Part shown: piece after piece, positions 2,303 through 26,196 of the stretch
How the letters are laid out: every line of letters starts with the position of its first letter
How positions within the stretch are numbered: the stretch's first letter is position 1
Virus record (IMG/VR): IMGVR_UViG_3300042898_003591
Location: 1 to 26,196 of that record
DNA: 26,196 nt
Source: a virus
Strand: one strand, 5' to 3'
Notes under the pieces: generated by a model
What the model saw: the letters and a program-made list of their open reading frames with translations, nothing else
What the model was told of the DNA's origin: nothing
The model's database searches: none
Made by a program: the position numbers and the translations under genes

Positions 2303-3925
<1,623 letters not shown>

Positions 3926-8675: not shown

Positions 8676-8676
8676 A

Positions 8677-9099: not shown

Positions 9100-9247
9100 A
9101 TTTTGGTTTCTTTAAAAGTCTATCGATATTTGTTTGGTTAAATTTAACTAATTCACGAATTTGTTTACCTAATTCAGTATCATCGTGAATTTCATGAACT
9201 AGATTATCTAATTTTTCTAAGTATAATTCTAAAACATTACTTACCAT
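9083..9247 (-). CDS. Small helical protein (54 aa)
   Basis: Found in a gap. The ATG at 9247 overlaps the TAA of the RNA ligase gene as TAATG, and the frame runs 54 codons to a TAA at 9083, overlapping the next gene by 17 bp. The protein is a charged helix ('LELYLEKLDNLVHEIHDDTELGKQ', then 'IRELVKFNQTNIDRLLKK'), probably a short coiled coil. Its position suggests a role next to the RNA ligase but nothing in its sequence proves it. Confidence 0.7.
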   Translation of the reverse strand: MVSNVLELYLEKLDNLVHEIHDDTELGKQIRELVKFNQTNIDRLLKKPKYVERL

Positions 9248-10383: not shown

Positions 10384-10386
10384 AAT

Positions 10387-10812
10387 TTAGTCTATAATAG
10401 TTTCAATAGTATTCGGTACAATCCATCTAACACAATCTTGTGGTAAACGATTAATATGTTTATAATTGTTAATGTAACCCATCATATTAGCAGATCCAAT
10501 TGCGTTAGCTGAATGAACCATTACTTTACAAATAGGAGCTCCATTCATCCATTGGTCTACTAACCATTTAGTACAATCCATTCCGGTCTTTTCTTTAATG
10601 TTATCATAGTTCAAAGAAAAGTTATGATATACATTAGTATGCCATTCCATGATTGCGGTATCGCCTAGGTCATGGTCTAAAGATATTAATTCAATATTAT
10701 CTAATCCAATTTTAGTTACAGTATCTACAAACTCATCATAGTTTTTGACTACAACCCACTTTTCAGTGTCATTTGGAATTCTTATATCGTCTAAGTATAT
10801 ATTATATTTCAT
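10387..10812 (-). CDS. Cyclic-phosphate processing receiver-like protein (Cpp-REC)
   Basis: A stand-alone receiver-like fold of the type linked to RNA end processing. The first strand ends in the acidic pair of LDDIR (7-11), the second conserved block is 'LISLDHDLGD' (about 43-52), and the third is 'CKVMVHSANAIGSANMMG'. Missing kinase or output domains argue against classical two-component signalling. The family is thought to act on RNA 2',3'-cyclic phosphates, which fits the adjacent RNA ligase (3 bp downstream) and P-loop kinase. The promoter -7 box ends 5 nt before the ATG, so the mRNA is probably leaderless. Confidence 0.8.
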   Translation of the reverse strand: MKYNIYLDDIRIPNDTEKWVVVKNYDEFVDTVTKIGLDNIELISLDHDLGDTAIMEWHTNVYHNFSLNYDNIKEKTGMDCTKWLVDQWMNGAPICKVMVHSANAIGSANMMGYINNYKHINRLPQDCVRWIVPNTIETIID

Positions 10813-10817
10813 TATGA

Positions 10818-10860
10818 TAAAGATAATAGCTTTATTTCAATTAAACAAGAAAAATGTTAA
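10818..10860 (-). promoter_or_regulatory. Phage promoter TTAACATTT-N3-TTG-N20-TATCTTTA
   Basis: TTAACATTT (10860-10852), TTC, TTG (10848-10846), 20 nt, TATCTTTA (10825-10818) on the minus strand. It is 5 nt from the ATG at 10812. A weak hairpin (GTTAAA-CTTT-TTTAAC) overlaps the upstream box just after the preceding gene. Confidence 0.75.
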
Positions 10861-10866
10861 AAAAGT

Positions 10867-11283
10867 TTAACGAAGTTTAACTTCAAATCGATTTTCCATT
10901 TTATCTAATGTTTCTTCTGCAACGCCATGTATTGACTTATTACCATGGCGATTTTCTACAATCAAAGAAGTTACATTATACCCGTACGCAGCTGCTAAAT
11001 CTAAATAAGGTTGCATTTCTTTTTGTGTTGTAGTAGTATTTGATACTACAATTTCTGAAAAGTATTGTCCATTTGTTTCTGCATTACGTTGCATTGCAGC
11101 TTCGATTGAAGCAATACACCATTCATGTGCCTTATGAAGTTTAAATGCATCAAATATGTATTCACCTTCTTCATTGATAAAGTACTTATCAGCTTCGAAT
11201 ATAACTCCGGATTGCCAAATAAAATTAGCAAATGATGACTTACCAGCACCAGGCAACCCTCTAAGTATAATTAAATTTTTCAT
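10867..11283 (-). CDS. P-loop kinase, polynucleotide-kinase/N4BP2-like
   Basis: Begins MKNLIILRG, running into Walker A GLPGAGKSS (9-17). Then 'FEADKYF' carries the Asp that in polynucleotide kinases contacts the acceptor, 'IVVSNTTTTQKEMQPYLDLAAAYGY' is the second conserved block, and 'HGVAEETLDKMENRFE' forms the lid-like helix typical of the AAA_33/N4BP2 group. At 138 residues it is only the kinase half; the phosphatase domain of T4 Pnk is absent. The likely reaction is ATP-dependent 5'-phosphorylation of nucleic acid. It is flanked by a phosphoesterase and Cpp-REC, so an RNA-repair role is inferred. The -7 box ends 5 nt before the ATG. Confidence 0.82.
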   Translation of the reverse strand: MKNLIILRGLPGAGKSSFANFIWQSGVIFEADKYFINEEGEYIFDAFKLHKAHEWCIASIEAAMQRNAETNGQYFSEIVVSNTTTTQKEMQPYLDLAAAYGYNVTSLIVENRHGNKSIHGVAEETLDKMENRFEVKLR

Positions 11284-12515: not shown

Positions 12516-13517
12516 TTATACTAAATACATTCCAATAAACGAAAAATCATATGGCCCTGCTTGAGTACTTTCGAAAATAAGTTGATTACCTACTAATGAT
12601 TTTACAGCTATACCTGCCGATCCAGTACCGGTCGCCGTAACAAATACATTATAATATAATGTGCCTGATAATCCATTAACTGTAATTGGAGGTGATACTG
12701 TTGCTCCCGAATTAATTCGTCCGCCGCCGGCAAACATTGTAGCATTAGATGCAATGGATATCGTCGAACCACTTTGTACAACTTGAATTGTACTTAAATT
12801 ATTAGCTAATGTTGCATTAGTTGCTGATGCAGCTGATGTAGCATATGAAGCTGATATTGAATTTACTGCCCATGAACTAGTTCCAAACAATGATCCGGTG
12901 ATTCCACTTTGTACATTTAATGAACCTGTTAATAATGTAGGCCCTATTACATTAAATGACCCTGTTACTCGTAATGAACCAGTAACTAATGCAGTACCAC
13001 TATATGGAAATCCCGTACCAGAACCTCCTCCATTTAATGCATATGAAGCTGTTGTTGCAAATGAAGCAGATACTACGGCAGCTACATATGAAGCTGTTTG
13101 TGCAAATGACGAACTTATCGATGAATTACTAGTTAATGAATTACTAGCAAATGATGAACTTAAACTATATGAACTAGAAACACTATATGAAGAACTTACT
13201 GAGTAAGATGAACTTACACTTAATGAACTAGATAATGAATATGATGCTGATACAACCGAACCTAATAACGATCCCGTAAATGATCCTGTAAATGAGCCTG
13301 TTCTATAAGATGCTGATCCGGTCCATGTATTTAATGATGCAATAGAACTAGTAACACTAGAAATAGCTGTTATATTAGTCTGCGTAATTATTTTATCACC
13401 GCTTAAATACAATGAAGATAATACGGAACCAGTACCATCGGTTACTGTAGATCCACTAACCTGTAAAATTCGGTGGTAAGATTGTGAAATATAAAGATTA
13501 GTTAAATCGTATGCCAT
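12516..13517 (-). CDS. Serine-rich repetitive virion fibre-like protein (333 aa)
   Basis: After a short N-terminal segment the protein is built from low-complexity repeats: GSFTGSFTGS (74-83), then six-residue SSSYSV/L units from about 97 to 122, then 'SSSFAQTASY' and 'SASFATTASYAL' (136-161). A second repeat block of TGSL/TGSF motifs covers 173-230. The last 90 residues, after a GGG hinge at 264-266, look globular and beta-rich. Such Ser/Thr/Ala/Tyr repeats form elongated beta structures in tail-fibre and decoration proteins of marine and Bacteroidota phages. It is probably a virion surface protein; whether it binds receptor is unknown. It stands close to a large glycan cluster. Confidence 0.8.
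   Translation of the reverse strand: MAYDLTNLYISQSYHRILQVSGSTVTDGTGSVLSSLYLSGDKIITQTNITAISSVTSSIASLNTWTGSASYRTGSFTGSFTGSLLGSVVSASYSLSSSLSVSSSYSVSSSYSVSSSYSLSSSFASNSLTSNSSISSSFAQTASYVAAVVSASFATTASYALNGGGSGTGFPYSGTALVTGSLRVTGSFNVIGPTLLTGSLNVQSGITGSLFGTSSWAVNSISASYATSAASATNATLANNLSTIQVVQSGSTISIASNATMFAGGGRINSGATVSPPITVNGLSGTLYYNVFVTATGTGSAGIAVKSLVGNQLIFESTQAGPYDFSFIGMYLV
13158..13229 (-). repeat. In-frame 18-bp repeats encoding SSSYSV/L
   Basis: Residues 97-120 of the fibre-like protein consist of four tandem six-residue units of SSLSV/SSSYSV/SSSYSL type. The DNA repeats are only partly conserved, with synonymous changes between units. Recombination between units could change fibre length. Confidence 0.6.
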
Positions 13518-14064: not shown

Positions 14065-14352
14065 TTAGTAAGTTAAATTTCCCATTTGAGTAGCTTTGTC
14101 GAACTTGCCGAGCAAGTCTTGATTTGGCATAACCGCGATCCAATCATCGCCTCTATCAGTAACCGTTGCTCCTTTTTGAAGGGCATTAACTTTCCAAGCT
14201 TCGAATTCTTCGAATTTTCTATTTATGATGTCAGCATTGGCTTGTGTCTGCTCAACACCCATTGGCGAAAAGTAAATAAGTTCCTGTCCATATTCTTTAA
14301 TTATGGCAGAAACTTCTTCGCGAATAATTTGTATTAATTGTGATTTTTTCAA
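14065..14352 (-). CDS. Hypothetical protein with MKKxxLxxxIxxEV N-terminus (95 aa)
   Basis: Not assigned. The first 18 residues (MKKSQLIQIIREEVSAII) form an amphipathic helix of a kind repeatedly found at the start of head or virion proteins in large phages. The next gene upstream (14353) starts with the same pattern. The rest is alpha/beta, with a helix around 'ANADIINRKFEEFEAWKVNAL'. Packaging or targeting by the N-terminal helix is an inference. It abuts the upstream gene with no gap. Confidence 0.78.
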   Translation of the reverse strand: MKKSQLIQIIREEVSAIIKEYGQELIYFSPMGVEQTQANADIINRKFEEFEAWKVNALQKGATVTDRGDDWIAVMPNQDLLGKFDKATQMGNLTY

Positions 14353-14640
14353 TTAGAACTTAAATTTGGTTCTGTATTGAGAGATCATGTTCATGTAAGC
14401 TGATACTTCAGCTTTAGAAATGTCAAGTGCTAAACATATGTCATTAAACATTGCAGCTACTTGTGGTTTTGTTAAGTTATTAGACTTTTGTAATGAATCT
14501 ACTAACTTATCCATAGGCTGCTTAAGGGAAGATGGGTACTTAACGTCACTTAAATTATAAGTTTCATTTGTTAATTGTTTTTCACTTAAAGCAATTTTTA
14601 CTTCTTGCTCAATTAAATTTACTAATTCTTGTTTTTTCAT
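14353..14640 (-). CDS. Hypothetical protein with MKKxxLxxxIxxEV N-terminus (95 aa)
   Basis: Starts MKKQELVNLIEQEVKIAL, the same amphipathic helix as the gene immediately downstream, then diverges. The remainder is helical: 'LKQPMDKLVDSLQKS', 'TKPQVAAMFNDICLALDIS' and 'AEVSAYMNMISQYRTKFKF'. The two 95-residue proteins may be paralogues in their first 18 residues only, or may share a targeting signal. A purine-rich AAGGGAAG lies upstream of the ATG and might act as a weak ribosome-binding site. Confidence 0.78.
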   Translation of the reverse strand: MKKQELVNLIEQEVKIALSEKQLTNETYNLSDVKYPSSLKQPMDKLVDSLQKSNNLTKPQVAAMFNDICLALDISKAEVSAYMNMISQYRTKFKF

Positions 14641-14672
14641 CTTTATCTTCCCTTAGCAGGCTATTGGTTGTT

Positions 14673-14864
14673 TTACTTTTTAGTTGATTCTACAGAAGCT
14701 TTTTTGTAAGCAGTTACATGCTTCTTAAGTTCATTGATTGCTTTTCTTGCTCTACCTGCAGCGGATTTGTTTTCCTTTTCTACAAATGTAGCATGATTAG
14801 ATTTAAATGATTCCCATAACACTTCCATTTCAGTGTAAATTTCAAAAACTGTTTTGTTTTCCAT
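14673..14864 (-). CDS. Histone H1-like (Hc1-type) DNA-binding protein (63 aa)
   Basis: The central sequence 'NKSAAGRARKAINELKKHVTAYKKASV' closely follows the core of the bacterial histone H1-like Hc1 family, which binds and compacts DNA. That family is common in Bacteroidota. An N-terminal helix precedes it and a Lys-rich end follows. At 63 residues it is a full-length short form. In a phage it could condense the injected or packaged genome, or affect host chromosome structure. An ATATTTAT motif lies 32 nt upstream, like other probable virion genes. Confidence 0.8.
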   Translation of the reverse strand: MENKTVFEIYTEMEVLWESFKSNHATFVEKENKSAAGRARKAINELKKHVTAYKKASVESTKK

Positions 14865-14896
14865 AATTGATTTGTTTATTTGTTTAAAAATTTAAT

Positions 14897-14904
14897 ATAA
14901 ATAT
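14897..14904 (-). promoter_or_regulatory. ATATTTAT motif, possible late promoter
   Basis: The minus strand reads GATATTTATATTAAA upstream of the Hc1-like gene, with no TNG box 20 nt upstream. Confidence 0.35.
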
Positions 14905-14913
14905 CAAAAACCT

Positions 14914-15123
14914 TTAAAATTCATTGATTATAGTGTCTATTGAATTTAATTTATTCTTTAATTCAATGCATTTTTCAAAGTCTTCTGTATTACTGTAATA
15001 TTCGATCATTTTATTGATCAAAGTTTTTTGTTGGTCAGCTTCTAATTCAATTGGCCAGGCAATATATTTTGTATTAATTAGATCATATGTACGATCCATG
15101 ATGTAGCCAAAGTTATTATCCAT
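14914..15123 (-). CDS. Hypothetical protein with UVR-like motif (69 aa)
   Basis: Not recognised as a whole. The last third ('YYSNTEDFEKCIELKNKLNSI') resembles the short UVR motif of UvrB, UvrC and ClpA-type proteins, a helical hairpin used for protein-protein contact. The first half is aromatic-rich (FGYIMDRTYDLI). It lies 4 bp after the Ntn-hydrolase-like gene. A binding adaptor is possible; the motif is too short for certainty. Confidence 0.7.
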   Translation of the reverse strand: MDNNFGYIMDRTYDLINTKYIAWPIELEADQQKTLINKMIEYYSNTEDFEKCIELKNKLNSIDTIINEF

Positions 15124-15127
15124 AGTT

Positions 15128-16225
15128 TTAAATTGAGTCTAAAATAATAAACTTAAGTTTTGCTGTATAACCTTTAGGTAGTTTGTTTATGTATCCTTTA
15201 AACTCCGCCTTTGATTTATCTGCACGAAACGAAAGAGTCTTTTTATTTAAATTCATCATACATTGTGATGTAGTCCACATCTTATACTTGTTATCTCTTC
15301 GATATGGATTCATAAATGGATCACTAGTATACTGTTTAGACAATGCATCTAATACTTCAAAATCAGACTTAACTGTATTAAGCTTATCAGTTGCAATATT
15401 CATTCTAGATACTGATGAGTCTCGTTTAGTACCACCTGTATAACCTGTTTCAGGATATTCTATTCCGTGATTTGTTCTTACGGTAGTTTCTCCATCTTTT
15501 AATTGTTTAATAACAGGCAAGTGTTTAGATGTCATTTCAATCATATACGCGTATTTAGTATTAGCAACAATTGTCATTCCTTTTACACCTACGTCAGATT
15601 TGTCTTGTCCGACAAAGTATACTACTGACTTAATTGTTTCTGATAGTTTTGTTTTACTTAACGCAGTTCGAATCTTTAATCCATCAAATGAAGGTGTGAT
15701 TCCTTTCTTACCTTTATCCTTAGCTAAGTCTCCTTCTTTTTCATCAAAGTCAACCATTAAAGATGAATTAACAATACCTACTCCAAATTCATTAATACCT
15801 TCGGACCAATCTGTTAATGTATCATGTATATACAATACTTCAACATTGTTTATTATTTCATGTACTACTTCAATACTTGCTTTATATGCTCTATCTCTAT
15901 TCTTAGCTAAGATAGTATCATTATTTAAATTAACTTTAGCTACAACACATTCATTTATTTTAGATTCAAATGCAGGCCTAGGCACTACCGGTCCTAATGT
16001 TTTTATCATTTGATCTGATGACTTTGTTAATTGGTCACCTGGTTCATAGGTAGGTCCTGAATTAAGAACTTTATATGTTAAGTCTCCATTTGAATGTACA
16101 TATACTAATTCACCTTTTGATTTGTAATGTGTACATGTAGGATTGATATTTTTTACAATATCACCGGGCTGAAACTCATATGGCTTCGACACATTTAAAA
16201 GGTTATTCTCTAATTTCATTTCCAT
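15128..16225 (-). CDS. SH3-like domain fused to Ntn-hydrolase-like domain (365 aa)
   Basis: Residues 18-75 form a small beta-barrel-like domain seen in several large phages: GDIVKNINPTCTHYKSKG, 'NGDLTYKVLNSGPTYEPGDQLTKSSDQ'. From Cys93 the sequence looks like a C45/NRDE-type N-terminal nucleophile hydrolase: C93-VVAKVN, then 'ILAKNRDRAY' (105-114), 'GVGIVNSSLM' (148-157) and RTNHGIEYPETG (250-261). If Cys93 is the nucleophile, self-cleavage would release the front domain. Such enzymes cleave amide bonds; the substrate is unknown. The start at 16225 was kept, but Met3 (16219) gives less overlap with the upstream gene. Confidence 0.7.
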   Translation of the reverse strand: MEMKLENNLLNVSKPYEFQPGDIVKNINPTCTHYKSKGELVYVHSNGDLTYKVLNSGPTYEPGDQLTKSSDQMIKTLGPVVPRPAFESKINECVVAKVNLNNDTILAKNRDRAYKASIEVVHEIINNVEVLYIHDTLTDWSEGINEFGVGIVNSSLMVDFDEKEGDLAKDKGKKGITPSFDGLKIRTALSKTKLSETIKSVVYFVGQDKSDVGVKGMTIVANTKYAYMIEMTSKHLPVIKQLKDGETTVRTNHGIEYPETGYTGGTKRDSSVSRMNIATDKLNTVKSDFEVLDALSKQYTSDPFMNPYRRDNKYKMWTTSQCMMNLNKKTLSFRADKSKAEFKGYINKLPKGYTAKLKFIILDSI

Positions 16226-16700
16226 TATAAATATTAGTTCTCCAGGTAACTACATTATTTAATTGTTCTTGTGACCAATAATCATAATACGAAGTAGATT
16301 TAAATAATTTATCCGATTTACTAGTTAAATCATTTAAGTCTTGTACAATCCAAATATAACAATCTGGAAAATTAGTAACTACTCCATTTAAACTAAACGG
16401 CGTTCTAGGATCAGAATCTAATACTACTTTATTTAACGACATATACTGCTCATTTAAATATTTAGTCATATGTTCTAATGCTTCGACGGTATACTCTAAA
16501 TAATTTAATAAATAAAATATACAGACTTTATTATCTATTATATTACAATGGTCTATTTGAACATTGATTGTATTTAATTCACATGCTTCAACAGTAAATT
16601 GATTTGTGGCTGTTTTTGCATATGGACATATACTTTGATTACCTAACTCAATTTTTGGTACTTGAATATATTTAAACCATTTATGAATTTCATTTACCAT
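16203..16700 (-). CDS. Hypothetical protein with ICPYAK motif (165 aa)
   Basis: Not assigned. An N-terminal 'WFKYIQVPKIELGNQSICPYAK' resembles a phage and bacterial family starting with W..IPxxxLGxxxxCPFAxxA. The middle is beta/alpha, and 'DPRTPFSLNGVVTNFPDCYIWIVQDL' looks like a conserved loop. The Cys in CPYAK is a possible functional residue. It overlaps both neighbours (7 bp and 23 bp), so it is locked in the same translational run as the ADP-ribosyltransferase-like and Ntn-hydrolase-like genes. Confidence 0.75.
   Translation of the reverse strand: MVNEIHKWFKYIQVPKIELGNQSICPYAKTATNQFTVEACELNTINVQIDHCNIIDNKVCIFYLLNYLEYTVEALEHMTKYLNEQYMSLNKVVLDSDPRTPFSLNGVVTNFPDCYIWIVQDLNDLTSKSDKLFKSTSYYDYWSQEQLNNVVTWRTNIYNGNEIRE
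16227..16234 (-). promoter_or_regulatory. ATATTTAT motif, possible late promoter
   Basis: The minus strand reads TAATATTTATAATGG, ending at the ATG of the Ntn-hydrolase-like gene; it lies inside the 3' end of the upstream gene. Confidence 0.25.
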
Positions 16701-17488
16701 GGAAGATCATCATATGAATCAATTGGCGTAAATTTAGTGTTGTAATCTGTATGTTTTACAGCTAAGTCATACAAATCTACATCAGAGTCTTGTAGTGCAT
16801 TTGGCTTATAACCTTCTAAAATTTCATATAGTATTTGAAATATGTTATCAACATTATAGCTACTAATAACTAAATAAGTTTTAATGTCTTTACCAAAATG
16901 AAGCATTTCTGATTCACGTAAATCAGATAATTCATTTGAAGCACGTGGGTTCATAATAAACGAATCATCAACTTTAGTTATTAATATTAATTTACGTAGT
17001 CCGCCATCGGTAAACGTCTCAGCAACTGTTTCTATGCTAGACCAGGATTGTACGGGCGACTTAGGTTTATATTCATATGGAATAGCAACAACTGGTCCGG
17101 AATAATGTTTATTATGGTTCGTAACAATAAATACATTGGGACTGTTTTTTATTAATTCATATACATACTCATAGCTATTAGATATACTAGTACCTCGAAA
17201 TCCATATGAATCCGGCGTATCAAACACTTTCGGAAATTTCTTTTTTAACTTGAATAAATCCGTTTTTATTTTTTCAAATTCTTGTGATAAACGTCCGGTA
17301 TACTCACCTTGAGCGCCGACCGCACCTGGGTTACCTTCGAACCAACGTTTAAGTAAATTATATAATTCAGCCTCTGCCTGTGTATTATCTTCTTCGGGTG
17401 CATTTTGATACTTAGCCATACGCGGACTTTCTCCAAATGCTACATCGCCCATTGGAATATCCTCGAGTAATTTTTTAAGTCTAATCAT
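16694..17488 (-). CDS. Putative ADP-ribosyltransferase, possibly virion-associated
   Basis: Three separated motifs match the R-S-E class of mono-ADP-ribosyltransferases: FRGTS with Arg98, 'VQSWSSIETVAETF' with the Ser-x-Ser core (148-151), and RESEMLHFG with the E-x-E pair Glu192/Glu194. The family moves ADP-ribose from NAD to proteins; phage members such as T4 Alt and ModA modify host RNA polymerase and ribosomal proteins. The first 20 residues (MIRLKKLLEDIPMGDVAFGE) resemble N-termini of large-phage virion proteins, so injection with the DNA is possible. The ATG at 17488 is preferred over an upstream TTG two codons earlier. Confidence 0.65.
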   Translation of the reverse strand: MIRLKKLLEDIPMGDVAFGESPRMAKYQNAPEEDNTQAEAELYNLLKRWFEGNPGAVGAQGEYTGRLSQEFEKIKTDLFKLKKKFPKVFDTPDSYGFRGTSISNSYEYVYELIKNSPNVFIVTNHNKHYSGPVVAIPYEYKPKSPVQSWSSIETVAETFTDGGLRKLILITKVDDSFIMNPRASNELSDLRESEMLHFGKDIKTYLVISSYNVDNIFQILYEILEGYKPNALQDSDVDLYDLAVKHTDYNTKFTPIDSYDDLPW

Positions 17489-17494
17489 ATACAA

Positions 17495-17982: not shown

Positions 17983-19047
17983 TTAATCGTTGTGTATTTG
18001 AACCAAATCATGAGATAAGTCATCTAATGAATTTACTGTAATTCTTAAAGATCCTATTTCAAAAGTTCCGGTATCATTTGTTTCTTTAACTATCTCATTC
18101 AAGTTCATAATAACATCAAAGTCATATTGTGTTAAACTGTTCATGTTAAACTCTACTTGTATTTGAAAGTCTTCAGCATTAATAGGATTAATTTCAGTAA
18201 ACCAATCATCTATCACGCTATTAGGTTTATAATTATAAATTACCGCGCATTTATTGTATACTGGAATTAAAATAGGATGTTGATTAGCATCATTCTTAAT
18301 CCAACTACCCCATTTCTTAATATAATACTTGCTAGCATTGTATTCAGCTTCAGTAAAATAATCATCATTCTTACCAATCTCACCTGTCCATCGATGCCCT
18401 CTACAAGTTAAATGATATACTAGAGCATCTCTAGATTGAACTAGTTCATATCCAGCTAACAACCATCTTTGAAATATATCAGAGTCTTCATATGGGAATG
18501 GAGCAAAACCCCAATCATGTCCACCGATAGCATTAAAGTCTTCTTTATAAATAACCCATGGAGCAAACATACTCTTTGAAGTAACTCCATTCATTGCTAC
18601 TTGTTCTTCATCTACAAATGATTCAAATCCTTCAATGTTTAATGAATCAAAGTCTAAACCAAAATCCATAACTATTTTTTCTGGACCTGCAGGATGCAAC
18701 GGCGGTTCAACTCTAGTACCACATACAACTGTTTTAGGTTTTAAATGCTTAATTGTATTTTCTACATAGTTCTGACCCATTATCATATCGGCATGCATTA
18801 TACCTACAATATCATTTGTAGCTAGTTGAATACCTAAATCATACAGTACTGTATGACCATCTCTAGTAGGACTTTTATATGGAATTACATTCGGATCATC
18901 TAACCCGATAATCCATTCCCATGTACCATCAGTTGATGCATCATCTAATAAAACTATTTCAGCATTAGGTGCATGTTTTTTAATTGAATTATATGCATTT
19001 TTTAAATGCCTTAAATTATTATGCGACGGTATTACTATTGATATCAT
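17983..19047 (-). CDS. Family 2 glycosyltransferase (354 aa)
   Basis: A GT-A fold enzyme: MISIVIPSHNN at the start, the nucleotide-sugar motif 'VLLDDASTDGTWEW' (32-45), a metal-binding HAD (85-87, in place of DxD), and a catalytic-base region 'FPYEDSDIFQRW' near residue 190, followed by 'LVYHLTCRGHRW'. About 100 extra C-terminal residues may contact the acceptor. It should transfer a sugar to a growing glycan in the cytoplasm. The ATG at 19047 was chosen because it forms ATGA with the upstream stop and gives the canonical family start; an ATG at 19071 would add 8 residues inside the neighbour. Confidence 0.93.
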   Translation of the reverse strand: MISIVIPSHNNLRHLKNAYNSIKKHAPNAEIVLLDDASTDGTWEWIIGLDDPNVIPYKSPTRDGHTVLYDLGIQLATNDIVGIMHADMIMGQNYVENTIKHLKPKTVVCGTRVEPPLHPAGPEKIVMDFGLDFDSLNIEGFESFVDEEQVAMNGVTSKSMFAPWVIYKEDFNAIGGHDWGFAPFPYEDSDIFQRWLLAGYELVQSRDALVYHLTCRGHRWTGEIGKNDDYFTEAEYNASKYYIKKWGSWIKNDANQHPILIPVYNKCAVIYNYKPNSVIDDWFTEINPINAEDFQIQVEFNMNSLTQYDFDVIMNLNEIVKETNDTGTFEIGSLRITVNSLDDLSHDLVQIHND

Positions 19048-19733
19048 GATTTTTGTATTGTTAGTCCCCAAATTACATTAGGTGAATATGGATTATAATG
19101 TTGATAGTACTGAGGGTGATTTATTTCCTTTGATGTTTCTGACCATTGATGAAAGTCTTCGGAAATATAAAACTTTTCATCTACTATAGTATAACCATTA
19201 CTAGTAAGTTCTTTTAAGATAAGTTCTTGTCGCTGTGTATCATAATATCTTAAAAATGGTTCTCCACTTGTTTCATAATTCATGAACGGCCCGGCCGGTA
19301 AAGTTATTATTAATTTAGATTTATTATCTTTAAGTAACTTGCAAGCTTTATTAATACCCCTAATATCATGATTCCATCTACATGAATCATCTTCAGCTAA
19401 TCCATTTGCCATTCTATTACCAGCAAACCAAAAGCCAAAATGTTCAAATACCGAAATTGATATTATATAATCAAATTTATTTGTTTCATCAAACTCAATG
19501 AAATCACTTTGTATATGATTCCAATCTGTATTTAATTTTAACCAAGCATTTTCTTCTACCGGAAGTATGTCTGTTGTTGTGACATTATTAAAACCTAACT
19601 CTTTTATAGTTTCACTTACACCCTCAACACCTCCCCATCGTTCTCCAATGATTAATATTGATTGTTCTTTACCTTCTAACTGATCAGCGAAGTATGGTAC
19701 TTCAACTATTTTTGTTCCTTTTAATTGTATCAT
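19044..19733 (-). CDS. SAM-dependent methyltransferase (229 aa)
   Basis: A class I methyltransferase: motif I 'ILIIGERWGGVEGV' (27-39), an acidic residue after the second strand (TTTDILP), and 'FDYIISISVFEHFG' as the motif IV/V region. 'KLIITLPAGPF' and a C-terminal beta hairpin follow. The glycine motif is altered (IGERWGG), so cofactor binding should be checked. It is linked by ATGA overlaps to glycosyltransferases on both sides, so it most likely methylates a sugar or acceptor of the same glycan. Confidence 0.8.
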   Translation of the reverse strand: MIQLKGTKIVEVPYFADQLEGKEQSILIIGERWGGVEGVSETIKELGFNNVTTTDILPVEENAWLKLNTDWNHIQSDFIEFDETNKFDYIISISVFEHFGFWFAGNRMANGLAEDDSCRWNHDIRGINKACKLLKDNKSKLIITLPAGPFMNYETSGEPFLRYYDTQRQELILKELTSNGYTIVDEKFYISEDFHQWSETSKEINHPQYYQHYNPYSPNVIWGLTIQKS

Positions 19734-20452
19734 AAACTGTATTGCTCTCCATATGTTCTTAAATTAAAATATAATGAATTATATTCAGAATTACTAAAGT
19801 AATTATACATTTGTGTTTCTGCTCTTTGACAAAATTCATTAATACCTATATTTACTTTGTTTTCTTTAAATGTTAATGAATTCATATGAGTGATAGTATT
19901 ATTATCTGATACTACAATTTTTAATCCTTTAGTTTCAGCTATACATCCTCCATAAAGATCCGTACCCCATCCATATATCAATTCGTCCGGGAACTGTTTA
20001 ATTTCTTCTAAAATGTCTCTTCTAAATAAAGGAGCTTGGAAATCAATCCATCGTACTTCACGCAATCCTTTACCCCAATTCCACATTTGTTTCCAATGAC
20101 ATTGTTCCATTGAAGCATTAATAATAGTAGGAGAATAAATACTAGCATTAGATTCTTTTGCTTCTCTTAAAGATGTAGTTAAAAACGAAGGTCCATGAAA
20201 TACTAAATCATTATTTAAAAAATACATGTATTCATGATTAGTTGTTAGAAAATATTCTACCGCAGCATTAATTCCTCCGCCAAAGAATATATTGGTTTCT
20301 AATTCATGTGTTGTTGATTTTGCTTTAGGTTCTGATGATCCATTGTCTATTACCATTAGTTCACATTCATTGAACATAGGATCTTGTTTTAATTGATTAA
20401 CTAAACTATCAGTCCAATTAGGTAAATTATGATTAAGTGTTACTATTAACAT
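19730..20452 (-). CDS. Family 2 glycosyltransferase, rhamnosyltransferase-like (240 aa)
   Basis: A compact GT-A enzyme: MLIVTLNHN start, 'MVIDNGSS' (33-40), 'GGGINAAVEYFL' helix (58-69), an NND metal motif in 'MYFLNNDLVF' (76-85), and the catalytic region 'YGWGTDLYGG'. The short length and NND motif suit GT2 rhamnosyl- or similar transferases. The ATG lies 20 bp inside the upstream gene and the stop overlaps the methyltransferase ATG (ATGA). The transferred sugar cannot be read from the sequence. Confidence 0.88.
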   Translation of the reverse strand: MLIVTLNHNLPNWTDSLVNQLKQDPMFNECELMVIDNGSSEPKAKSTTHELETNIFFGGGINAAVEYFLTTNHEYMYFLNNDLVFHGPSFLTTSLREAKESNASIYSPTIINASMEQCHWKQMWNWGKGLREVRWIDFQAPLFRRDILEEIKQFPDELIYGWGTDLYGGCIAETKGLKIVVSDNNTITHMNSLTFKENKVNIGINEFCQRAETQMYNYFSNSEYNSLYFNLRTYGEQYSL

Positions 20453-21275
20453 AGGGTGGGTATAATTGATTAAATGTATAATTCGTTTTAAATTTGTTTA
20501 ATAAATAATTGTATTTTGATTCTAAGTTATTATTAGATAACCATTGTGATTGATATGATATCAAATCTGTTCCATTCATACTAATACCATTTTCTATATA
20601 TGGAAAATAACCCGATCTTGATACTATGAAAGGAAATACGCCTTCAAAATAATATCGATCTAATTTTGTATTAAACCACGTATCACTAATTAGATCAAAA
20701 AATACATTAATTGGTTTTTTTGTAATTACATATAATGAATGTATATAAAATATATCCATATGCGCATATGGCAATTCTTTAATAATATCATTTTTCCATA
20801 AACTAATTTCTACATCTGTATCTGTATACGCTACATTTAAATTATATTCTAAACCTAACATTCCATACGACCCGACATCTTCGGTACTAATAAAATCTTC
20901 TATTGAATTACGTTTATTTAAAAAATTATTAATATACCATTCTCTTAAATAATCACTATGTGAATTAACGCCACTTTTAGTGTGAACAAACCAATAGTTA
21001 TCGTATTCCTTGCCAGAATCTCGAAGTAATTTTAATGCAGCTTGGTAAGCAGACGCATCACTTCTACTATATAATGACTCATTTACTTTAGCTATTTGAG
21101 TATTTAGTTCATATTCATTAATTATATCTTCTATATTATCTAAGCTGCCGGGGTTGATACCGACATATAAATCACTATCCAAAAACTTAGATTTAAATGT
21201 TTCAAGAAACTGTCTCAAAACAAATTCTCTATCTTTACTAAAGATTGAAGCAGCGAATATAATACAACTAGACAT
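20433..21275 (-). CDS. Possible glycan-synthesis protein, RgpF-like (280 aa)
   Basis: Uncertain. The block 'SGKEYDNYWFVHTKSGVNSHSDYLREWY' (87-114) resembles the 'xHTKxS...WR' region of rhamnan-synthesis F-type proteins, which act with glycosyltransferases in cell-wall polysaccharide assembly. The rest is mixed alpha/beta with many aromatic residues and no membrane helix. It could be a divergent GT-A/GT-B enzyme. Its neighbours and overlaps (TAATG with the upstream gene, 20 bp with the downstream one) firmly place it in the glycan cluster. Confidence 0.65.
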   Translation of the reverse strand: MSSCIIFAASIFSKDREFVLRQFLETFKSKFLDSDLYVGINPGSLDNIEDIINEYELNTQIAKVNESLYSRSDASAYQAALKLLRDSGKEYDNYWFVHTKSGVNSHSDYLREWYINNFLNKRNSIEDFISTEDVGSYGMLGLEYNLNVAYTDTDVEISLWKNDIIKELPYAHMDIFYIHSLYVITKKPINVFFDLISDTWFNTKLDRYYFEGVFPFIVSRSGYFPYIENGISMNGTDLISYQSQWLSNNNLESKYNYLLNKFKTNYTFNQLYPPYVNSNT

Positions 21276-21889
21276 TATTTTTTATAAATAAACGCAATAT
21301 CAGATACCAATGCTTTTTCAATATGTATTTCCATGACATTATTGTTTAAGTATTCTATTTCACTAGCAGATAAACAATTACTTTGTATAATACCCGTAGC
21401 CTTCCAATCTCGTAAAATTTCTAAAGTAGCTACATCGCCGGGTCTAGTATATGCAGAATTATTCGCTGTATGCAAATCTTCAATTACAAATATACCACCT
21501 GACTTTAAGACAGGGAACATATGACCTAATGTAATTTGTTGCTGATGTTGCCAATGACCGCCGTCGTCAATAATAATATCAAACTTATCATATGAATTAT
21601 CGACTACATTCTGTAATTGAGTGCGGTCTGATTGATCACATACTAAAATTTTAGTATCGGGCAATGATATATGAGATAAGTCTAATATATCAGCGCCTAC
21701 TAATTTACCTGCAGAAAAATATTCACGCCACATTCGAAGGCTTTCTCCCTCCCATAGACCTATTTCTAAAAAAGTATCCAATGTAGTACGATACTTGTTA
21801 AAATGTTTTTCATAGATGTCTAAATATCCATGATATACATTACCCTTATCTGATTTGTATTTCAGACTAATTTGTTCTAATGATTCCAT
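21275..21889 (-). CDS. SAM-dependent O-methyltransferase, macrocin/MycE-like (204 aa)
   Basis: Follows the pattern of sugar O-methyltransferases of the macrocin or MycE type: 'KSDKGNVYHGYLDIYEKHF' (12-30), motif I LEIGLWEGESLRMWR (41-55), 'GADIL', 'VCDQSDR' (83-89), and 'FDIIIDDGGHWQHQQQITL' (103-121) with the DDGGH metal-binding signature. It most likely methylates a hydroxyl on a sugar. The start at 21889 was chosen: it lies 8 nt after the upstream stop and avoids a 29-bp overlap, whereas an ATG at 21925 would add a non-conserved 12-residue extension. Confidence 0.88.
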   Translation of the reverse strand: MESLEQISLKYKSDKGNVYHGYLDIYEKHFNKYRTTLDTFLEIGLWEGESLRMWREYFSAGKLVGADILDLSHISLPDTKILVCDQSDRTQLQNVVDNSYDKFDIIIDDGGHWQHQQQITLGHMFPVLKSGGIFVIEDLHTANNSAYTRPGDVATLEILRDWKATGIIQSNCLSASEIEYLNNNVMEIHIEKALVSDIAFIYKK

Positions 21890-21896
21890 ATATTGT

Positions 21897-22676
21897 TTAA
21901 TATTCGCTAAGTGATGGCATTCCAATACCTAAATAAAGTTTAGATATTTTAGTTTGATTATAATTTGTAGGTTTGTCAAGTTCAAATTGATGAGCATAGT
22001 GATAGTTTTTAAATAACGGACCTTTTGGCATTAATCTAATAACTTGGCTGTATAAGAGCCATTCCCCGTACCATGTAAACTCTGATCCATTGACTTGTAT
22101 AAGATCACTAAATTTTAAATTATTAGGAATTATATAATTATCTTCTAATGATTTCCATACCTTACTAGACCAAATCGTAGGGCCTGGACCAAAGTCATAA
22201 ACCGCTCCTTCTCTTCCAAATAACTCCATGATATGTTTACGCTCCGCAACAAATGACTCATATGGGTCAAAGTGAAGAGGATGTTTTTCCATGAACTCAA
22301 AAAAAGACTTATATTCATGACATATAGTATATGGTGTCTCATCATCAAACATAAAGTCACTGATCTTAAAATCTTTAATAAAGAAACAATCAGAATCAAC
22401 ACATAGATAATTTTCGCATTGAATTAATTTCCAGAATTGACTTTTAACTACTTGCTGACCTTTCCATCCTTGATTAAATGTATCAATATCTTCGTCCTTT
22501 AAAAGAGTATAGTTACTTTCACCTAACTCTTTTTTAAATAAGTCCATATCAGCTTCGGGAACAGAAATATAAAATGGAATATTATCAACATTGTATTTAT
22601 TGATACTATCTAATAATTTTTTTGCTCGATGTACATCTAAATGATAACTTTTACAATATAATACTATCTTATCCAT
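21897..22676 (-). CDS. DUF6492-type glycosyltransferase-like protein (259 aa)
   Basis: The features of the DUF6492/GT-A group are clear: 'KIVLYCKSYHLDVHRAKKLL' at the start, 'FYISVPEADMDLFKK' (35-49), 'GQQVVKSQFWKL' (73-84), 'YLCVDSDCFF' with the metal-binding DSD (94-96), and 'FTWYGEWLLYSQV'. Members of the group are predicted nucleotide-sugar transferases in surface-glycan clusters. It begins the second half of the cluster, 22 bp after the deacetylase gene. Confidence 0.82.
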   Translation of the reverse strand: MDKIVLYCKSYHLDVHRAKKLLDSINKYNVDNIPFYISVPEADMDLFKKELGESNYTLLKDEDIDTFNQGWKGQQVVKSQFWKLIQCENYLCVDSDCFFIKDFKISDFMFDDETPYTICHEYKSFFEFMEKHPLHFDPYESFVAERKHIMELFGREGAVYDFGPGPTIWSSKVWKSLEDNYIIPNNLKFSDLIQVNGSEFTWYGEWLLYSQVIRLMPKGPLFKNYHYAHQFELDKPTNYNQTKISKLYLGIGMPSLSEY

Positions 22677-22698
22677 ATTTTATTTTTGTTTAATTGTT

Positions 22699-23331
22699 TT
22701 ATTCATATGCGGTTATAATCTTATAAGACTCTACAAATCCTTTACCTTTTTTCATACATTGAAAATTAGTATGAAATCCATTTACTACATCATCAGAAAA
22801 ATAAGGTCTATGTATTTGTGACTTAAACTGATTTAACATCTTCTTTTTAATATAATAAAATTCTTTCAAAGAAACAAATAAATTTGGTATCCATGTTTCT
22901 AAAGTAGATGGTGACTTGTATTGTATAATACTATATGGGTTTATTCTAGATAATGGTGCAGCTAAACTACTTACTATAACATGTTCGAAATGACTATCAT
23001 ATTCTGATGTCGTCATAATACAATCATAGTCAAACTTTTTAGTAAAGTTAGTTTCAATCCAATGGATCCATTGATCAACATCTTTATGCTTAAATAGTTT
23101 TTCATCACTAAAATGCAAATGACAATTTTCAGATTCCGATACCGACCAAGCATTTAATACTTCTTGAATACGACTTTCACCGGTGGTAGTATCACAATCA
23201 CCGCCTTGTGTTAAACATAATACATCGAAGTGAGTATCATGATGTTTTAAAATAACGCCGGCTACACTGTATTCAGCATCATCGGGGTGCGGTGCTAATA
23301 CCAAGACCCTATTAAAATTTAAAAATTTCAT
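22699..23331 (-). CDS. PIG-L/LmbE family deacetylase (210 aa)
   Basis: The metal-binding HPDDAE (15-20) in 'VLAPHPDDAEYSVAGV', the loop 'LCLTQGGD', and the second metal-site motif HFEH later in the chain identify the PIG-L superfamily, zinc enzymes that remove acetyl groups from N-acetylglucosamine-type sugars. The length is normal. It overlaps the acyltransferase stop as ATGA. A deacetylase beside an acyltransferase suggests that one sugar is N-deacetylated and then re-acylated differently. Confidence 0.9.
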   Translation of the reverse strand: MKFLNFNRVLVLAPHPDDAEYSVAGVILKHHDTHFDVLCLTQGGDCDTTTGESRIQEVLNAWSVSESENCHLHFSDEKLFKHKDVDQWIHWIETNFTKKFDYDCIMTTSEYDSHFEHVIVSSLAAPLSRINPYSIIQYKSPSTLETWIPNLFVSLKEFYYIKKKMLNQFKSQIHRPYFSDDVVNGFHTNFQCMKKGKGFVESYKIITAYE

Positions 23332-24155
23332 TTTCTATTTAAATTAAATTTGTATCCTTGCGGAGCATATACTCTAATTCCATAACGTCTAGCAAAATCT
23401 CTAAACGCATCTGTAATTGAATCATGCTCTCCTTTATATGAAAAGTCAATTAAATTGATTTCTAGTTTATTAATTGTTAATACCGGATAATCGTGAGTAA
23501 TAGAATATTCAGGTATATCATAGTACGACATTAAATCTTTAAAGTCAGCGACTAATCCATCTAACATTATAAACTTTTCTTCTAATGTAGTATCCGCAAT
23601 TGTTTTAATTAATTTAGCCGGCGAACCTGCATAAATTCCTTTCGGTATAGTTAATGATTTAGTTACTGTCGAATGCGATCCTATCACTACATTATCACAT
23701 ATATCTACTCCAGGCATAATAATTGACTTCCATCCTACTATTACATTATTACCTACATTAATGCCATTAAATGTTCTAGGATATCCGTCTAAGATATTAT
23801 ACCAAAAGCCATGTGTAATTAAATCGACATCATGAGACAACCCAACGTCATTGCCAATGTTAACCGGAGCGGCTAAATTGATATGACCAGTATGGCATAC
23901 CATTCCGGATCCTATTTTTAAATTAGCATATGGAAAGTTTGAACTACCTCCTCCGATAAGCATTCCTCGACTATCAGTAGGTCCATTATAAAAATACTCA
24001 CCTAAAGTAACATTTTCTGCATTAACAGTAAACCTATCACCTATAATACTATTATCGCCGATTTCTAAACGACCTCTAACTTTAATATTAATGTTTTTAC
24101 CAAATTTAACGTTATTACCAATAACTAACTCGCCGGCTTCAAGTACTCCTGTCAT
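23328..24155 (-). CDS. Left-handed beta-helix acyltransferase (275 aa)
   Basis: Imperfect hexapeptide repeats (IGxxxxI/V) run from about residue 11 to 170, forming a left-handed beta helix. 'GGGSSNFPYANLKIGSGMVCHTGHINL' and 'LSHDVDLITHGF' carry conserved His of the trimeric acyltransferases, and 'IPKGIYAGSPAKLIK' closes the fold as in WbbJ/maltose O-acetyltransferases. About 85 extra C-terminal residues form a further domain. Likely acetyl- or acyl-CoA dependent modification of a sugar. A GGAGGA just before the ATG is part of the SDR Gly-Gly codons, so its role as ribosome-binding site is unclear. Confidence 0.87.
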   Translation of the reverse strand: MTGVLEAGELVIGNNVKFGKNINIKVRGRLEIGDNSIIGDRFTVNAENVTLGEYFYNGPTDSRGMLIGGGSSNFPYANLKIGSGMVCHTGHINLAAPVNIGNDVGLSHDVDLITHGFWYNILDGYPRTFNGINVGNNVIVGWKSIIMPGVDICDNVVIGSHSTVTKSLTIPKGIYAGSPAKLIKTIADTTLEEKFIMLDGLVADFKDLMSYYDIPEYSITHDYPVLTINKLEINLIDFSYKGEHDSITDAFRDFARRYGIRVYAPQGYKFNLNRK

Positions 24156-24799
24156 ATAATTCCTCCGCTTATGTTTAAGTTTTGCCCTGTCATGTATCCT
24201 GTTTCAATTAGGTAATCAATTGTATTATATAACTCATCAATCGTTCCCCATCTTTTTGCTGGAATGTTATTTTTGATTGTTTCCCTAAAATCTTCTGGAA
24301 TTTTATAAGTCAATCCACCATCGAAGTATCCTAATTGTAGGCTATTACATGTGACATTTTTATTTGCATTTTCTAAGGCTACTGTTTTAGTAAAGCTATC
24401 AACAAACCCTTTACATCCTGCATACACACTCGTACTCATTACCGGATGATCTGCTAAGATAGAAGATACTAATATAACTCTACCGAATTGCTGTTCTCGC
24501 ATATAAGACAAGCAATTGGATACTATGTTAATTGTACCATTTATATTAACATTAATTTGTTTATCGATAGTCTCAATGTTAGATTCTGATATCTTATGTG
24601 CGAAGGTATCTGAGTTATAACCACTTAAGTTAATTACTATATCTACTTTATTAGCTTCGAAAAAAGTCTTAACCGTTGCAAAGTCAGTTACATCTACATC
24701 TATAGAACGTAATCCTAATACATTGTATTTATTTTTGAGTAGTGGTAGCAATTTACTTCCTAATCCTCCGCCTGCTCCGAATAATGCTATTGTTTTCAT
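24152..24799 (-). CDS. Short-chain dehydrogenase/reductase (215 aa)
   Basis: A Rossmann SDR: the cofactor motif GAGGGLG (8-14), 'DIVINLSGYN' (53-62) in place of NNAG, 'LVSSILA' with catalytic Ser112 or 113, and YAGCK with Tyr126 and Lys130. The C-terminal 'YMTGQNLNISGGI' matches the usual SDR end. It probably oxidises or reduces a hydroxyl of a nucleotide sugar or a precursor, using NAD(P). Coupled by ATGA to genes on both sides. Confidence 0.9.
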   Translation of the reverse strand: MKTIALFGAGGGLGSKLLPLLKNKYNVLGLRSIDVDVTDFATVKTFFEANKVDIVINLSGYNSDTFAHKISESNIETIDKQINVNINGTINIVSNCLSYMREQQFGRVILVSSILADHPVMSTSVYAGCKGFVDSFTKTVALENANKNVTCNSLQLGYFDGGLTYKIPEDFRETIKNNIPAKRWGTIDELYNTIDYLIETGYMTGQNLNISGGII

Positions 24800-25458
24800 C
24801 GCTTTGCTATAAAAATTTCTTGCGTATCTGCATATGAAAATCCATAGCCAGGTCCAAAATACTCACGTAGATCATTAAAATACTTTTCTTTATCTGCGAA
24901 GAATAGTGTATGAAGGCTTATATGCATATTAACATTTAAAGTCTTCCAAAAAGGATCTTTTAATAGTTCACTTTCATATCCTTCAATATCTATCTTAATA
25001 ACTGATATATCATCTTCTGTTAAGTTATATTTAGTAAAAATATCTTTGATTGATATCGTATCACACTCTATGCTATTCGCTGTTTTAGTAAAACTAGTAA
25101 CACCGCCGCCTAATTCATCTGCACCAATGGCTAACTTAGATTCAGAAGAAACAGCTACATTCTCACATATAATATTTTGAAAGTTGTTTGCTTTTACATT
25201 CTCTACTAAATACTTATAAGCACTCGGATCTGGTTCGAAACACAAACACTGCTTCGAATGTTGCTGTGCTACTAATGATATCGGTCCTTGCCATGCTCCT
25301 ATATCGATAAAGGTCTTGTTTTTATCTAGGTGTGGTATAATATCACTAAACGTGCTAGTTTCCCAAGATTCTTGATAAATAGTTCTCCAAAAATTATCTA
25401 AATCAGGCGTTGATGGAGTTACTACAAACTCTACATCTTGTTTTTTTATTGTTATCAT
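24796..25458 (-). CDS. FkbM-family methyltransferase (220 aa)
   Basis: The FkbM pattern is complete: 'KTFIDIGAWQGPISLVAQQ' (48-66) with the SAM-binding glycine loop, 'CFEPDPSAYKYL' (73-84), 'NVAVSSES', and 'VIKIDIEGYESELL' (153-166) with Asp157 and Glu159. FkbM enzymes O-methylate sugars and related small molecules. It is the third methyltransferase in this cluster, and all three come from different subfamilies, suggesting methylation at more than one position. Confidence 0.93.
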   Translation of the reverse strand: MITIKKQDVEFVVTPSTPDLDNFWRTIYQESWETSTFSDIIPHLDKNKTFIDIGAWQGPISLVAQQHSKQCLCFEPDPSAYKYLVENVKANNFQNIICENVAVSSESKLAIGADELGGGVTSFTKTANSIECDTISIKDIFTKYNLTEDDISVIKIDIEGYESELLKDPFWKTLNVNMHISLHTLFFADKEKYFNDLREYFGPGYGFSYADTQEIFIAKR

Positions 25459-26150
25459 TTTATTTCTACTTTACTTGACCAATTACTACTATTTTTATTC
25501 ATATGCGCTAGATAATACTTTTCATCTTCGGGCAAATTATTTGGATCATAATAAAATGGTGCATGTTTAACTATATAAGGAACACCTACCCTCAGTGTAT
25601 TATTAGACCATGTAGGTATCGTATTTGGAGCATGCACTGAGAACGTTGTATCAATAGGATGTGGATATAATTCTACACCTGACTCATCTATAATGCCATT
25701 TGTCCAATATGTTGATTCATAACTATACACCCATTCATTTAATGAATATGACCTGTCAATATCATCTATTTTGATTGACATACCAACTTTTGGTTTATTA
25801 TACTTTAAAGCAAATGCTATTAAATCTTCAATAAAATTATCCGGTACCGTATCTAATGGAATAATGTCACTGTCATTAAACACATACCAATCAGATACTA
25901 TTTCAATAAACTTAGGATGATTCATTTGAACTAAATCTCTAAATGCATGACATGAATTTTCTGTTATATCATTATGAAATACATCTACATTAGATGTTTT
26001 ATACCAATCTAATAAAGGTTGATATGTCGATTGGTTATCAATGATTATAATGTTAGTATAGCCCTTACTTTGAAGTGCATTAACTTGTTCTACGAGAGGA
26101 TGAAATCTATCTCTATTAAGAATTACTATTGGAATTTGTTTATTATTCAT
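25455..26150 (-). CDS. GT-A family glycosyltransferase-like protein (231 aa)
   Basis: The N-terminus 'IPIVILNRDRFHPLVEQVNAL' and 'NIIIIDNQSTYQPLLDWY' resemble a family of GT2-like proteins; 'WYVFNDSDIIPLD' carries a metal-binding DSD (93-95). The C-terminal part is Tyr/Trp-rich and lacks the usual catalytic helix, so the enzyme class is less certain than for the other transferases. Its stop overlaps the FkbM gene as ATGA. Confidence 0.8.
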   Translation of the reverse strand: MNNKQIPIVILNRDRFHPLVEQVNALQSKGYTNIIIIDNQSTYQPLLDWYKTSNVDVFHNDITENSCHAFRDLVQMNHPKFIEIVSDWYVFNDSDIIPLDTVPDNFIEDLIAFALKYNKPKVGMSIKIDDIDRSYSLNEWVYSYESTYWTNGIIDESGVELYPHPIDTTFSVHAPNTIPTWSNNTLRVGVPYIVKHAPFYYDPNNLPEDEKYYLAHMNKNSSNWSSKVEIK

Positions 26151-26156
26151 AATATA

Positions 26157-26196
26157 TTAATTAGGCATTGCAGGTCCAAATTGATCATATGTGTTT
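26157..26196 (-). CDS. Partial gene, C-terminal 12 residues
   Basis: A frame open at the right edge of the window encodes ...NTYDQFGPAMPN and stops at 26157, 6 bp before the next ATG. The spacing and the proline-rich end are consistent with the last codons of another gene of the cluster, but too little is visible to assign it. Confidence 0.45.
   Translation of the reverse strand, partial: NTYDQFGPAMPN

Follow-up and report, generated by a model that had tools for sequence, protein, structure and literature searches.

A phage glycan locus with a conserved frame and a variable cassette: a candidate system for glycosylating virion proteins in the host cytoplasm

Viruses that encode enzymes for their own glycosylation have been described in several settings. 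In mycobacteriophages, glycan has been shown on capsid and tail tube subunits (Freeman et al. 2023, as cited in later papers), and in chloroviruses the capsid protein receives its glycan in the cytoplasm from mostly soluble enzymes (PMC5408694). Glycosyltransferase clusters are also found in cyanophages and pelagimyophages, where they are usually interpreted as serving modification of the host O-chain or lipopolysaccharide (LPS) (PMC3037559, PMC2984593, PMC7029224). Here, we analyse a cluster of eleven genes (17983-26150, all on the minus strand) in the IMG/VR virus record IMGVR_UViG_3300042898_003591, a fragment of 26,196 bp that was taken whole and is referred to as the window. We consider it moderately probable that this cluster is the 3′ portion of a locus with which the phage would assemble an oligosaccharide directly on one of its own proteins, probably a virion protein, in the cytoplasm of the host, with exchangeable ‘serotype’ cassettes. 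An earlier, sequence-only reading had proposed an undescribed glycosylation system, a wording that has to be given up, since both glycosylated virions and phage LPS-like clusters have been described before. What appears to be new is the combination of a conserved frame and a variable cassette in phages, for which no published description was found in a search that covered few subscription journals and is weak evidence of absence.

The eleven genes belong to a larger locus, of which they form the truncated 3′ end. As the record stops at position 26196 and relatives carry five to six further locus genes upstream, the cluster is not an eleven-gene unit; beyond the record end (26151..26196) a 5′ frame is expected, with an order taken from five relatives (L003, L009, L013, L014 and L004). 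In relatives, this frame consists of a PD-(D/E)XK exonuclease, two GT-B glycosyltransferases, a 154-aa protein, a 207-aa glycosyltransferase (GT2b) and a 284-aa glycosyltransferase (GT2c), and is followed 3′ of GT2c by a variable tailoring cassette and then by a terminal GT2 glycosyltransferase, represented in the window by the gene at 17983..19071. In L009, holin and amidase/endolysin genes come after the terminal GT2, and this is the 3′ flank seen where examined. A scan of IMG/VR with the PIG-L gene of the window gave 15 contigs (42-78% identity in PIG-L). In 13 of them the gene order is kept apart from some missing genes, with identities of roughly 45-87%; of the remainder, L010 has a truncated end, and L016 shares only PIG-L and the acyltransferase, both at lower identity, and frame genes. 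A second scan of IMG/VR, with a profile of the terminal glycosyltransferase, gave at least 435 relatives, and 80 of the 435 loci were taken for analysis; the terminal enzyme is the conserved 3′ end in all 44 complete loci. The closest relative of the window, G003 (the same contig as L004), keeps the flanking genes (e.g. 15128 at 83%) and the terminal glycosyltransferase (70%), but differs in the middle, where it has epimerase, dehydratase and extra methyltransferase genes. The frame is also present in the isolated Flavobacterium phage immuto (identities of 57% for GT-B, 61% for GT2b, which is KNV73_gp178, and 39% for the terminal glycosyltransferase, gp169), which has T4-like gp20 and gp23 genes. 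In its cassette, an epimerase and a methyltransferase accompany two aminotransferases and a PglD-like acetyltransferase. Parts of the frame are carried by the complete Microcystis phage Mel-JY01 and by G006, and single loci encode up to nine glycosyltransferases.

The genes among and between those of the frame are highly variable. Their 641 open reading frames (ORFs) fall into 165 families, 94 of which were seen once, and the 44 loci that are complete from GT2b to the terminal glycosyltransferase represent 18 content types, in a set biased towards the window's own type by one scan that started from a window gene. Conserved flanks around an exchangeable middle, as in Wzx/Wzy- or ABC (ATP-binding cassette)-dependent O-antigen and capsule loci, are thus found here as well. 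The gene trees of the locus disagree: those of the terminal glycosyltransferase and of the glycosyltransferase at 19730 join the window with L004 at 100% support and reject a pairing with L003 (p 4e-5 and 5e-5). The tree of the acyltransferase instead places the window with L002 and L003 and rejects the pairing with L004 (p 0.026). The same pairing is borderline for 20433 (p 0.046) and not rejected for the 21275 methyltransferase (p 0.15). These discordant trees indicate exchange between phage lineages through mosaic recombination inside the locus.

The sequence-only reading had remarked that no polymerase, flippase or membrane protein for export was visible, and this holds far beyond the window. 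Each of the 641 cassette ORFs has two hydrophobic segments at most, and no polytopic protein occurs across about 80 loci, so that a flippase, polymerase, ABC exporter or transporter of polytopic type is missing from every cassette; nor was an initiating phosphoglycosyltransferase found among the cassette proteins scanned. In the control, 12 of 23 bacterial DUF6492 neighbourhoods hold a protein with at least six hydrophobic segments. A relative of 173,789 bp has no ORF with four or more. The lack of polytopic membrane proteins in all loci rules out a Wzx/Wzy or ABC pathway complete in itself and supports a glycan pathway that the phage encodes without genes for export. A candidate PglC-type phosphoglycosyltransferase in immuto was rejected, the annotated ‘pilin glycosylation protein’ being a PglD-like hexapeptide acetyltransferase.

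A match of the whole cluster to a host polysaccharide locus, named in the earlier reading as an outcome that would count against it, was looked for and not found: 23 of 24 loci from genome collections share little beyond DUF6492, with one distant homologue of 25455 in one of them and one distant GT2b homologue in one. The 24th (L053), on a contig binned in the metagenome-assembled genome of an uncultured bacterium, carries a complete phage-type locus itself (DUF6492 71%) and is probably a mis-binned phage. Among 396 Flavobacteriales genomes the 20433 family is essentially absent, and the terminal glycosyltransferase occurs in six, two of which are apparently phage contigs. Four Flavobacteriales chromosomes (L164-L167) contain a three-gene operon of a GT4, a GT2b-like gene (about 40%) and a gene like the terminal glycosyltransferase (about 28%), with no polytopic gene beside it; in L165, the one annotated case, it adjoins gltX, accA, EF-Ts and other housekeeping genes. 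This operon is possibly an ancestor of the phage frame.

The nature of the acceptor is suggested mainly by GT2b. Searched against solved structures, the GT2b profile finds the flagellin O-GlcNAc transferase domain of GmaR as its best match (E 2.8e-12) over nearly the full length and the peptide glycosyltransferase SunS next (1.6e-8); the SunS family model is matched by 6 of 10 GT2b members, the copy of G006 by itself finds GmaR at 1.4e-7, and the glycosyltransferase domains of GT2b and of GmaR and SunS are of similar size. GmaR is known to place N-acetylglucosamine on flagellin through its N-terminal domain (PMC9638930). For both GT-B profiles of the frame, the best solved relative is the chlorovirus protein B736L (2.6e-13 and 3e-5). 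A cytoplasmic protein acceptor is the best-supported reading of these predicted enzymes, with a virion protein as the natural candidate. The proposal of the sequence-only reading that the phage glycosylates its own virion proteins thereby gains indirect backing as regards a protein acceptor, through the likeness of GT2b to GmaR and SunS and through the lack of polytopic membrane proteins, but the acceptor that it singled out, the fibre-like Ser/Thr-rich repeat protein at 12516..13517 (minus strand), is still a guess. This protein has homologous stretches in G001, G002 and G003 and no family match in Pfam or PHROGs. In a 50-aa segment of it Ser/Thr reach 62%, and elsewhere they do not exceed 26%; as an acceptor it is a speculative candidate put forward from its composition. 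A Ser/Thr-rich C-terminal tail was also sought in the major capsid protein of immuto and was not seen.

From the genes, their conserved order, the cassette variation, the absence of polytopic membrane proteins and the discordant trees, all of which are observed directly, we infer specificities and an order of action for the enzymes, a protein acceptor and its identity, and a biological benefit, as follows. The GmaR-related GT2b of the frame, beyond the window edge, would start the glycan on Ser/Thr of the acceptor, and the GT-B and GT-A enzymes of the frame would build the core. The variable cassette (here 25455-19044) would add further sugars together with methylation, N-deacetylation, O/N-acylation and oxidation or reduction, and a further conserved residue would come last, from the terminal GT2 (17983). 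As virions assemble in the cytoplasm, neither a lipid carrier nor export would be needed. Cassettes would be exchanged between phages by recombination, so that phages of one lineage would carry different glycans, much like serotypes.

In its most general form, which we put forward tentatively and hold to be somewhat short of an even chance, the proposal is that in aquatic myoviruses, probably infecting Flavobacteriia, the outer, conserved enzymes carry out the first and last steps in the synthesis of an O-linked virion glycan in the cytoplasm, and that the central cassette is swapped between lineages as in O-antigen loci, giving many sugar coats under diversifying selection. If true, this would be a surface-sugar polymorphism of tailed phages comparable to bacterial serotypes that needs neither a lipid carrier nor export. 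The phage ‘LPS’ gene clusters would then gain a use, which they have long been without, and predators, host lectins or antibodies recognising virions would have a likely target in the glycan. The reading is directly testable, since the isolated Flavobacterium phage immuto (on strain LMO8) has the same frame.

Several points weigh against glycosylation of a phage protein by swapped cassettes. The GT2b of L013 by itself reaches only E 0.08 to GmaR, so the likeness comes from the profile and from more distant members; among GT2 enzymes, GmaR and SunS are no more than the closest to have been solved, and saccharide glycosyltransferases come close behind for the GT2b profile (chondroitin synthase, 1.9e-7); and GT2b, like the other enzymes of the 5′ frame, lies beyond the window edge. 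B736L is without a proven biochemical function (PMC5408694). For the concatenated cassette genes the pairing of the window with L004 is not rejected (approximately unbiased test, p 0.11), which speaks for a mosaic and not a clean block, and strict block transfer of the whole cassette is unsupported. The glycosyltransferases that build lipooligosaccharide (LOS) cores are soluble too and require no dedicated flippase, so that the lack of a flippase is compatible with a lipid acceptor, and an alternative built on LOS carries more weight than this lack would suggest.

In that alternative, which we regard as unlikely but as the one most worth keeping in mind, the enzymes extend or modify LOS or another surface glycan of the infected host in the cytoplasm, the host's MsbA or Wzx exports the product, and superinfection is excluded or the cell shielded. 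Glycosyltransferases of pelagimyophages (PMC7029224) and cyanophages (PMC2984593) have been interpreted in this way in the literature, and the alternative would fit the DUF6492 relatives in bacterial genomes, about half of which lie near polytopic membrane proteins, as well as the operon of distant GT2b and terminal-glycosyltransferase homologues on the four Flavobacteriales chromosomes, where no polytopic neighbour is seen. The absence of polytopic flippases, polymerases and transporters from the loci and of a phosphoglycosyltransferase from the scanned cassette proteins argues against it, as do the failure to find a host locus with the cluster and the position of GT2b, which is nearer to protein and peptide glycosyltransferases than to solved LPS core enzymes. 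It is far less probable still that the cluster consists of accumulated host-derived genes without a coherent function, i.e. cargo or ‘stuffer’ DNA, as has been raised for the LPS clusters of cyanophages (PMC3037559): the gene order is conserved, coding is nearly continuous, the frame is kept in contigs from many samples, and the GC content of the cluster is the same as that of the remainder of the window.

A glycan on modified bases of the phage DNA, serving against restriction, is improbable, though better founded than cargo. Up to nine glycosyltransferases per locus speak against it, and to our knowledge no DNA glycan needs nearly as many. Hypermodified DNA can be the work of phage glycosyltransferases (Pyle et al. 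2024, as cited in PMC12619734), and QueD of the 7-deazaguanine pathway is encoded in 9 of 14 related records, together with DpdA and QueF in immuto, but it is absent from Mel-JY01 and G006, which both carry parts of the frame. Distant PIG-L relatives in Mycobacterium phage Baee (L152) and Arthrobacter phage Klevey (L153) lie beside a TGT-like gene, or beside ParB-like and glycosyltransferase genes. TET/JBP proteins were not matched in the 14 records, some of which may be incomplete, in a search run without a positive control, and the two thymidylate-synthase-family proteins that were read (G001 and G002) have the synthase motif and not that of a dCMP hydroxymethylase. The latter enzyme had been considered for both contigs and was rejected on the true-synthase Asn of these proteins. 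As separate observations, the context of the Baee and Klevey genes suggests a DNA-modification setting for that PIG-L subfamily, and QueD is widespread whatever the cassette type (contigs L013, L009, L004, L045, L078, L088 and L149).

The eleven ORFs of the cluster cover 99.6% of their stretch, compared with 0% in shuffled sequence, and the genes are real, with orthologues of all or most of them in the same order in more than ten other contigs. Families were assigned by Pfam and PHROG searches, and genes without a clear family were structure-modelled. All genes lie on the minus strand, and the first one inside the window (25455..26150) encodes a GT-A fold glycosyltransferase of no known family (pLDDT, the confidence score of the model, 83), whose PDB matches include heparosan synthase, ColGalT1, SunS/ThuS and other glycosyltransferases and nucleotidyltransferases (E about 1e-5 to 1e-4) at TM-scores of 0.4-0.5, which denote likeness at the level of the fold only. 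It is followed by an FkbM-family methyltransferase (24796..25458; PF05050 E 7e-14, TIGR01444 E 1e-22, above cut-off), a short-chain dehydrogenase/reductase that is presumed to be a sugar oxidoreductase (24152..24799; PF13561 E 1e-28), a hexapeptide (left-handed beta helix) acyltransferase (23328..24155; PF00132 E 4e-8) with weak matches of the WcaF, WbbJ and galactoside O-acetyltransferase type, and a PIG-L family deacetylase with a PHPDD motif (22699..23331; PF02585 E 5e-12). The DUF6492 protein (21897..22676; PF20102 E 2e-11) is a probable glycosyltransferase, its DxD motif being glycosyltransferase-like by our own reading; the family has 50 members in the locus set and 23 bacterial relatives (38-46% identity), with no relative found among solved structures. 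Next comes a Methyltransf_24-like S-adenosylmethionine (SAM) methyltransferase (21275..21925; phrog_21658 methyltransferase, E 2e-23, or 1.8e-23 unrounded), whose true start is probably an internal ATG 12 codons in, as relatives have 204-217 aa. The protein at 20433..21275, a probable GT-A glycosyltransferase of no known family, has no PHROG match and no Pfam match above cut-off, and its model (pLDDT 75) gives weak matches to GT-A/nucleotidyltransferase folds (E 6e-4); it found no match among isolated phages by tblastn at E 1e-3, and neither did the acyltransferase and 16694 proteins by tblastn. The GT-A glycosyltransferase at 19730..20452 (PF00535 E 8e-5, just below cut-off) belongs to the largest cassette family, which counts 59 members and is often found towards the 3′ end of loci. 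The probable SAM methyltransferase at 19044..19733 (Methyltransf_23 E 0.006, below cut-off) is an optional neighbour of the terminal glycosyltransferase, which some loci have and others lack. The terminal enzyme itself is a clear GT2 family (GT-A) member (PF00535 E 5e-19), and an ATG at codon 9 may be its true start.

Measured against these assignments, the sequence-only description of an eleven-gene glycan cluster on one strand stands as far as the genes are concerned, and its tailoring enzymes (FkbM, Methyltransf_24-like and a third, weak methyltransferase, PIG-L, hexapeptide acyltransferase and short-chain dehydrogenase/reductase) are supported by the family searches. Its count of four GT-A transferases becomes four to five: 17983 is clear, 19730 falls just under the cut-off, and 21897, 25455 and 20433, the last of them weak, are assigned by motif or model. 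Joining by ATGA overlaps, said to be almost universal, is seen at 5 of 10 junctions as called, or 6 of 10 if the 17983 gene begins at its internal ATG, the others being overlaps of 1, 20 or 29 bp or a 22-bp gap. Internal promoters and terminators are indeed not commoner than chance (73 promoter-like sites against 82 in shuffles, 3 terminator-like sites against 3.4), but the single unit proposed on this ground is larger than eleven genes. The cluster had also been placed next to virion genes, which is not supported: PHROGs and Pfam searches of genes 14065-17494 found no virion family, 16203 matching PHROG families of unknown function only, and in relatives the locus lies between exonuclease and holin/endolysin genes.

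Elsewhere, the window encodes a GroEL (2303-3922; PF00118) with 63% identity to that of Bacteroides phages DAC16/SJC03 and 53% to that of immuto, a gene also found in relatives G001 and G002; directly adjoining it is what reads as a GIY-YIG/NUMOD-type homing endonuclease (3926-4576). A run at 9247-11283 resembles RNA repair, with an RNA ligase with a PHA02142 OB fold, a cyclic-phosphate-processing receiver domain (PF20274) and, by our own reading, a P-loop kinase-like ORF. A stand-alone methylglyoxal-synthase-like domain (8319-8696; PF02142 E 2e-15), 83% identical in G003, is unexpected in a phage.

Compared with the described systems, the locus combines features that are otherwise found apart. 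The clusters of cyanophages P-SSM2, S-SM2 and S-SSM7 (PMC3037559) and of pelagimyophages (PMC7029224) likewise belong to T4-like aquatic phages and hold glycosyltransferases of unproven function, but the former lie near hli03, phoH or tRNAs (PMC3037559) and many of the latter genes in a host-recognition region (PMC7029224); protein searches gave no cyanophage or pelagiphage match, Microcystis phage Mel-JY01 excepted, and did not include a gene-by-gene comparison of the frame. GmaR and SunS, the nearest solved relatives of the predicted GT2b, differ in that GmaR has additional tetratricopeptide repeat and anti-repressor domains. The O-glycosylation loci of Bacteroidota (LFG; PMC12871550), likely of the same host phylum, also have conserved ends with two terminal glycosyltransferases and a variable middle with methyl and acetyl tailoring, but they include a Wzx flippase, which the phage locus is without, and their protein targets are non-cytoplasmic. 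The fibril clusters of Megavirinae, with 6-33 genes for glycosyltransferases, methyltransferases and rare-sugar enzymes and a clade-specific content, are those of eukaryotic giant viruses, and the available part of their description (PMC10117803) mentions no conserved frame with lineage-swapped cassettes. Chlorovirus capsid glycosylation is alike in its virus-encoded cytoplasmic enzymes, in the match of both frame GT-B profiles to B736L and in a conserved glycan core with virus-specific decorations; it is unlike in being that of a eukaryotic virus with scattered glycosyltransferase genes and an N-linked glycan on the major capsid protein (PMC5408694). With the mycobacteriophages, finally, these phages share a tail and glycosyltransferases of their own; the glycan shown there on virion subunits (Freeman et al. 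2023, as cited in later papers) is here predicted from genes alone, in a locus that comprises about 16-20 genes and has cassettes that can be swapped, and the host phylum is a different one.

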